Shown: in pieces, positions 10,912-12,066 of the stretch
Position numbering within the stretch: the first letter of the stretch is position 1
How the letters are laid out: every line of letters starts with the position of its first letter
Origin: Pedosphaera sp.
GTDB taxonomy: Bacteria > Verrucomicrobiota > Verrucomicrobiia > Limisphaerales > AAA164-E04
Direction: 5' to 3'
Assembly (NCBI GenBank): GCA_002686885.1
Contig: NYYT01000032.1
Coordinates: 4,746-38,949, forward strand
Length of the DNA stretch: 34,204 nucleotides
Position numbers and translations under genes: made by a program
Notes under the pieces: model-generated
The model's database searches: none
Told to the model about the DNA's origin: nothing
What the model saw: only the letters and a program-made list of their open reading frames with translations

Positions 10912-10979
10912 ACTGCAGATCGGGCCAATAAGCCATAATTGTTTGACAAATAGCTACTTACATCCAGCTAAACGACTTG

Positions 10980-11055
<76 letters not shown>

Positions 11056-11148
11056 TGGCTGTCTTAAGGCTGACAAGCCCTTCTCTGTATTTGCCCAGCC
11101 AACCCTAAGCTGGTCAAGTGACCCACTCCATGATTGGATGAGGCTTAG

Positions 11149-12066
11149 ATGCCAAAAGCACCGTCTGCCACCATCGCCGCCTTTGAAGCGCTTTCACGTC
11201 TGAGGAAGGATTACAGTCAATCCTTCCTCAGACGTGACGCACACAACCAGCGATGGATTGAAAGCCTCATCCAGATGAGTCAGCTTCATGGCGAGAAAGA
11301 GACCCTCAATCGCGTGTCTGAGGAAATCGCCTCCTTCCCCAAGACAAATCGAGCCTCTGGGGCATCGAAAGATACCGACGTCTCTGCCCCTTCCCAAAAG
11401 ACAAAAAAGGATGCCCATAACGATGCTCCAAAAGGACCGGAGGCCTCCACGGATCGCTTGGAGCGCTGGAAGAGAAAAGTCAAAACAGGCCTTGAGGGAA
11501 TGCGTAAGGAACTCAAACAGGCCATCGAGGATTATCAGACCGCTCGTCACGCAGAGATCCTTGCCTCGGATTGGATGTTTCAGCAGGAAGCCGCCTACAA
11601 GCAGCTGGCCATCTCCTACCTTCTTCAACAACGTTCGGACTGGAAGGCCTCCTTCTTTGCCGTGGACGCTACCATGCTGTGTAGCATCTATCGGGACCAA
11701 TCCCAACAGTGGCAAGCCCATGGCGAACTGGCTTCCCTCGATGTCCTCAGACTACCTGAAATCGAACACAGGCTAACCGAAAAACCCTCCCCCCAGGAGT
11801 TTCACAAAACCCTTGAGTCGGCGATTCGAAAAAAACGCCTGAAGTTTGAAGATGCGATGATCGAATGTCGTTTGGTGGCGGACCCTGATCGGGTGGACGC
11901 CGTTTTGATAGAGCTTCCCATCGAAACCTTGTCCTTTCCCCTGCGCATGGCAGACCATCTCCACCATTTGCTGAGTTGTGGGCGCCAGCGTCGAATCACG
12001 GCCAAAGTACTCGGTTTTCCGAGAACAACAAAGCCGCGCAAAGCAGCGAAAAAAGCGGCCTCCTGA
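11149..12066 (+). CDS. unrecognised cytoplasmic Lys/Arg-rich protein
   Basis: A 305-residue protein without signal peptide or membrane segment, starting at ATG 11149 behind GATGAGG. I do not recognise the family. The N-terminal third is helical and charged. Residues 65-105 are a polar, low-complexity linker (KTNRASGASKDTD, SQKTKKDAHNDA). The middle is strongly helical (LERWKRKVKTGLEGMRKEL, possible coiled coil). A folded part follows (SDWKASFFAVDATMLCSIY, VLIELPIETLSFPLRM), and the tail is basic (TTKPRKAAKKAAS), like nucleic-acid-binding tails. A 19-bp perfect inverted repeat lies at codons 16-30. It is the first gene right of the tRNA fragment and the first of an apparent four-gene operon, with 91 nt to the next start. 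The basic tail hints at DNA or RNA binding; this is only inference. Confidence 0.75.
   Translation: MPKAPSATIAAFEALSRLRKDYSQSFLRRDAHNQRWIESLIQMSQLHGEKETLNRVSEEIASFPKTNRASGASKDTDVSAPSQKTKKDAHNDAPKGPEASTDRLERWKRKVKTGLEGMRKELKQAIEDYQTARHAEILASDWMFQQEAAYKQLAISYLLQQRSDWKASFFAVDATMLCSIYRDQSQQWQAHGELASLDVLRLPEIEHRLTEKPSPQEFHKTLESAIRKKRLKFEDAMIECRLVADPDRVDAVLIELPIETLSFPLRMADHLHHLLSCGRQRRITAKVLGFPRTTKPRKAAKKAAS
11194..11237. repeat. 19-bp perfect inverted repeat inside the start of a gene
   Basis: The arms TCACGTCTGAGGAAGGATT (11194-11212) and its exact reverse complement (11219-11237) are separated by ACAGTC. In mRNA this is a very stable hairpin beginning 45 nt after the start codon. There is no T-tract, so it is not a standard terminator. 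The reading frame stays open through both arms. Confidence 0.9.

Follow-up and report, generated by a model that had tools for sequence, protein, structure and literature searches.

A perfect 19-bp inverted repeat in the first codons of a genus-specific Pedosphaera gene, probably produced by replication template switching

Introduction

Template switching during replication is an established mutational mechanism (PMC7202029, PMC8604942, PMC8794818). Mutations that arise in this way at quasipalindromes have been described for thyA and lacZ reporters in E. coli and for T4 rII (PMC7202029; references in PMC8604942), and the cited bacterial examples are hotspots of mutation that were detected through gene inactivation or through reporters. 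In strains of S. cerevisiae, template switching homogenises the arms of inverted repeats within open reading frames and leads to runs of amino-acid changes, which cover up to five neighbouring residues and were found among close strains (PMC8604942). Translated genes with long and perfect inverted repeats are also present in the mitochondria of Nematomorpha, where the repeats are numerous, reach up to 284 bp and encode conserved residues in both arms (PMC6649704).

Here, we analyse a 19-bp perfect inverted repeat within a gene of Pedosphaera sp., located in a window of 34,204 nucleotides (contig NYYT01000032.1, positions 4,746 to 38,949). It resembles the quasipalindrome mutations in that an inverted repeat appears to have turned perfect within a coding gene, with substitutions clustered in one arm. 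In contrast to those cases, its history is deduced from a single diverged relative, the stem is a long one of 19 bp, and the gene is still open. The runs of amino-acid changes in yeast are a further parallel, although the change here would cover as many as seven residues in a single arm, in a bacterium and without close strains for comparison. Unlike the palindromes of Nematomorpha, this one is solitary and encodes poorly conserved residues. The repeat is real, strongly non-random and lineage-specific, and is best seen as a remarkable instance of an already known type of mutation, not as a new system.

Results

The gene containing the repeat encodes a 305-aa protein without any family match above cut-offs. 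Profile matches in PDB and NCBIfam are to generic coiled coils, and a Pfam tRNA_bind_3 match falls below its cut-off. The predicted structure is nearly all helix and places the palindrome in a helix spanning residues 6-29 (low confidence, pLDDT 47). The gene was found in only one other species when 84,980 species genomes were scanned twice and 58 relatives and the family were searched, and viral contigs and plasmids contained no relatives. The sole relative resides in Verrucomicrobia bacterium isolate HM.1 (G001, JALRAZ01), a congeneric MAG, and the two proteins share 46% identity. HM.1, in the following referred to as the sister, carries a complete copy of the gene and, on a different contig, a slightly diverged piece of 129 codons. 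The 5' part is present twice on these separate contigs (L010, L011) with ~94% DNA identity, which points to either a strain mixture or a duplication. Orthology of the genes in the two genomes is supported by the downstream gene, which is common to both and encodes a large protein with a cytochrome-like N-terminal motif. The upstream neighbour of the sister gene is a protein kinase gene and not tRNA-Thr(CGT). The features of the locus are as follows:

10979..11055, plus strand: tRNA-Thr (CGT), located 5' of the gene and listed for context; scores 28.3 with the Rfam tRNA model, slightly under the gathering threshold of 29
11135..11146, plus strand: left arm of an outer 12-bp inverted repeat; covers a GAGG ribosome-binding-like motif; paired in the predicted fold
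11149..12066, plus strand: orphan gene, 305 aa, helical and coiled-coil-like, found only in this genus
11194..11212, plus strand: left arm of the perfect inverted repeat, TCACGTCTGAGGAAGGATT; codons 16-22 (SRLRKDY), 3/7 residues identical to the sister
11213..11218, plus strand: loop of the perfect inverted repeat, 6 nt, ACAGTC
11219..11237, plus strand: right arm of the perfect inverted repeat, AATCCTTCCTCAGACGTGA; within codons 24-30 (QSFLRRD), 0/7 residues identical to the sister, BLOSUM62 score -4
11262..11273, plus strand: right arm of the outer 12-bp inverted repeat; codons 38-42; paired in the predicted fold

The inner arms (11194-11212 / 11219-11237) are complementary at 19/19 positions (100%) around the 6-nt loop, the left arm begins 45 nt past the ATG at 11149, and the reading frame stays open to 12066. 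An earlier note on this DNA, made from the letters alone, had described precisely this arrangement at 11194-11237, and all of it was confirmed. The description can be extended by a second perfect inverted repeat of 12 bp (11135-11146 / 11262-11273), which flanks the 19-bp repeat on both sides. Combined with a 7-bp CCATCGC/GCGATGG pair, it gives a predicted fold of 139 nt around the start codon.

As a background sample, 2,410,051 bases of the same Verrucomicrobia MAG (4.27 Mb genome), taken as stretches, were scanned for inverted repeats with loops of up to 60, and block-shuffled DNA served as the control. The shuffled 2.41 Mb yielded 23 arms of 11 bp, three of 12 bp and none longer, in full agreement with the earlier statement that a stem of 19 bp is far beyond chance. 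Stems in the real sample are mostly 11-15 bp long, and many of them are terminator-like, with an A-rich 5' side and a T-rich 3' side. The sample also contained one 18-bp stem between genes, the 19-bp stem and a perfect 46-bp palindrome at an extreme contig end. The 19-bp repeat ranks second behind this palindrome and is the longest repeat away from contig ends. The 46-bp palindrome (L094:18775-18866, end of G000:C64) has no spacer and terminates its contig, as happens at an assembly fold-back. The energy of the 19-bp hairpin is -33.2 kcal/mol compared with a mean of -11.6 kcal/mol in synonymous-codon shuffles of the gene, and its value was reached in 0/500 of them. The arm sequence occurs once genome-wide; a search for further copies of the unit, as the earlier note had suggested, returned no second one.

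The first 61 codons of the gene align to the sister without gaps, from a common start (MP..P) through a common NQRWIE. Both arms are absent from the sister, which has just a weak imperfect hairpin in roughly this position. The palindrome has thus replaced sequence of equal length and was not inserted. Conservation of the palindrome at the DNA level, which the earlier note had proposed to look for, was not found in this homologue, and the outcome that it had named as speaking against its view, a homologue with neither arm and a palindrome that is a single-lineage accident, is essentially the one observed. Nucleotide identity to the sister is 53% gene-wide, 49% (22/45) in codons 1-15, 32% (14/44) in the palindrome and 56% (51/91) in the next 91 nt. 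The dip over the 44-nt palindrome has a binomial P of 0.004 if the gene-wide 53% is taken as the expectation; equally low identity was seen in 69/872 windows of the gene, eight at the palindrome and the rest in a linker at ~nt 170-300. Note that the relative is very diverged, with 38% identity at third codon positions. Compared as DNA, both arms match the sister equally poorly (6/19 and 7/19 identical). At the protein level, the left arm retains three residues (L18, R19, Y22; BLOSUM +13), and by inspection the hydrophobic helix positions 12, 15, 18, 22 and 26 are kept. The imperfect hairpin of the sister covers codons 18-32, is centred about 6.5 nt off the palindrome centre and belongs to the most stable ~1% of the 44-nt windows of its gene. 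Its P by synonymous shuffle is about 0.05, a borderline value and slightly optimistic, as the shuffles were scanned with a coarser step than the observed sequence.

At 53% identity, the 38 bases of the arms should have taken up about 14 substitutions after the split, and an unselected palindrome as old as the split would survive with P of about 1e-6, by a simple Jukes-Cantor estimate that ignores selection. Given this expected decay, the palindrome should be young or actively kept: judged by its sequence, the perfect stem would either have arisen in approximately the final fifth of the lineage or need upkeep.

Discussion

We consider the palindrome to be probably a young, lineage-specific multinucleotide mutation caused by replication template switching, i.e., quasipalindrome homogenisation. 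This origin was not among the proposals of the earlier note. Two features expected of such an event were found: the arms exceed chance with a short spacer (19/19 pairs, a loop of 6 and at most 12 bp in shuffled DNA), and the state is derived at conserved length (61 ungapped codons, a sister without the arms). While passing codons 16-30, which would then have contained an inverted repeat that was weak and imperfect, the polymerase would have switched to the nascent or the opposite strand and used one arm as the template for its reverse complement. Upon its return in register, the other arm would have been overwritten base for base, with a net length change of zero and a perfect 19-bp stem as the outcome. 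The imperfect hairpin of the sister is a plausible picture of the quasipalindromic precursor. Copying from left to right appears more likely, with the right arm as the likelier overwritten one, because the left arm still encodes the L, R and Y common with the sister. This preference for the left arm as the source holds for the amino acids (3/7 vs 0/7) but not for the DNA (6/19 vs 7/19), and a single, very diverged relative allows neither the ancestral sequence nor the copying direction to be reconstructed. We infer that the change was neutral and that the palindrome survived because the amphipathic helix encoded here tolerates change. Selection could equally have kept the stem perfect. That the outer 12-bp stem is a remnant of one larger fold-back copy was considered and rejected: there is a difference of 23 nt between the two spacers, whereas the coding part aligns to the sister with no indel.

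If template switching is indeed the cause, the locus represents a clear natural case from bacteria of a single replication slip that changed as many as about seven adjacent residues with the gene unbroken, and the same slip created a very stable mRNA hairpin. In substitution tests, events of this kind look like positive selection, and they can also be a source of ready-made RNA structure.

A regulatory role of the repeat has a minority chance. The 19-bp hairpin and the outer stem may form a cis-acting RNA element in which the translation start becomes part of a long imperfect hairpin, so that translation is lowered or switched, a possibility that we regard as rather unlikely. The predicted fold of the whole region has -99 kcal/mol and a z of -6.9, and z is still -2.1 when the inner hairpin is removed. 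The outer stem pairs the sole ribosome-binding-like motif before the ATG (GAGG) with codons 38-42. Only 2/1000 dinucleotide shuffles of the flanks gave a stem of at least 11 bp and 1/1000 reached 12 bp, a statistic that is, however, post hoc. Such a fold around the start codon could hinder translation initiation. On the other hand, any function is putative and may be incidental, as the sister has no comparable fold: there, the same region folds no more stably than shuffled sequence (z -0.2 and -0.35), and the inner and outer stems are both missing from it, which leaves no covariation. Furthermore, no regulatory Rfam family matches the region, where the only matches are sub-threshold ones to eukaryotic miRNAs. 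An intrinsic terminator is not predicted at the 19-bp stem, which is not followed by a T tract. The more ambitious version, a self-regulatory translation-start hairpin of a genus-specific gene that was born in one template-switch step and whose perfect and outer stems control expression, is improbable. If true, it would be a bacterial counterpart of the birth of functional RNA hairpins by template switching.

There is similarly little chance that the second arm was written by an assembly or library artefact, that is, a fold-back chimera or a graph mis-resolved at a hairpin. The source MAG is fragmented (140 contigs, 6.66% contamination), and the 46-bp palindrome at another contig end is of the kind that assemblers leave at fold-backs. 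However, the 19-bp repeat sits 16 kb inside a 47.6-kb contig, and the sequence after it resumes on the correct strand, in frame and in register at exactly the length of the sister. A fold-back chimera would not return in this way, which makes an artefact unlikely.

The palindrome is very unlikely to be a DNA-binding site, i.e., the operator of a dimeric protein and possibly of the gene's own product. A perfect dyad near a gene start would suit an operator, and the earlier note had proposed autoregulation by a basic product. The product is indeed basic, though only mildly so (pI 9.5), and the sister protein has a pI of 7.2. Conserved autoregulation is not supported by the sister, which retains the protein and has neither arm nor any unusual structure there. 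Moreover, the palindrome is a single copy in the genome, the product resembles generic coiled coils and matches no DNA-binding family, and no promoter-like site was found nearby.

Insertion of a small element that kept the frame, another proposal of the earlier note and here considered as a mobile palindrome (REP- or MITE-like), is hardly credible despite the palindromic shape and the upstream tRNA gene, a common integration context: the repeat occurs once in the genome, its arm has no match in viral contigs, the sister gene is equally long across the site and reveals no empty site, no target-site duplication is seen in the sequence, and insertions of 19, 25 or 44 nt are not multiples of three and would break the frame.

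Further palindromes of this genome were noted. The template-switch signature was also looked for at other in-gene palindromes. For the one in L085, the sister genome contains no relative. A second one, with perfect 15-bp arms and a 1-nt spacer (L137:7947-7977, G000:C58), encodes HAHNDYEHE; the sister retains HSHNDYEHE at this place but not the perfect palindrome. It was dismissed as a case of the same signature, because it coincides with a conserved HNDYEHE protein motif, the codons of which may explain the palindrome. Intergenic hairpins of the genome, such as the perfect 18-bp one at L088:2200-2240 (G000:C58), share the long perfect stem and short loop with the 19-bp repeat. The latter differs in its position within a gene, close to the start, and is not followed by a T tract. 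The hairpin in L088 is located between genes directly after a stop codon, lacks an obvious T tract and is possibly an unusual terminator or a structure at the mRNA end.
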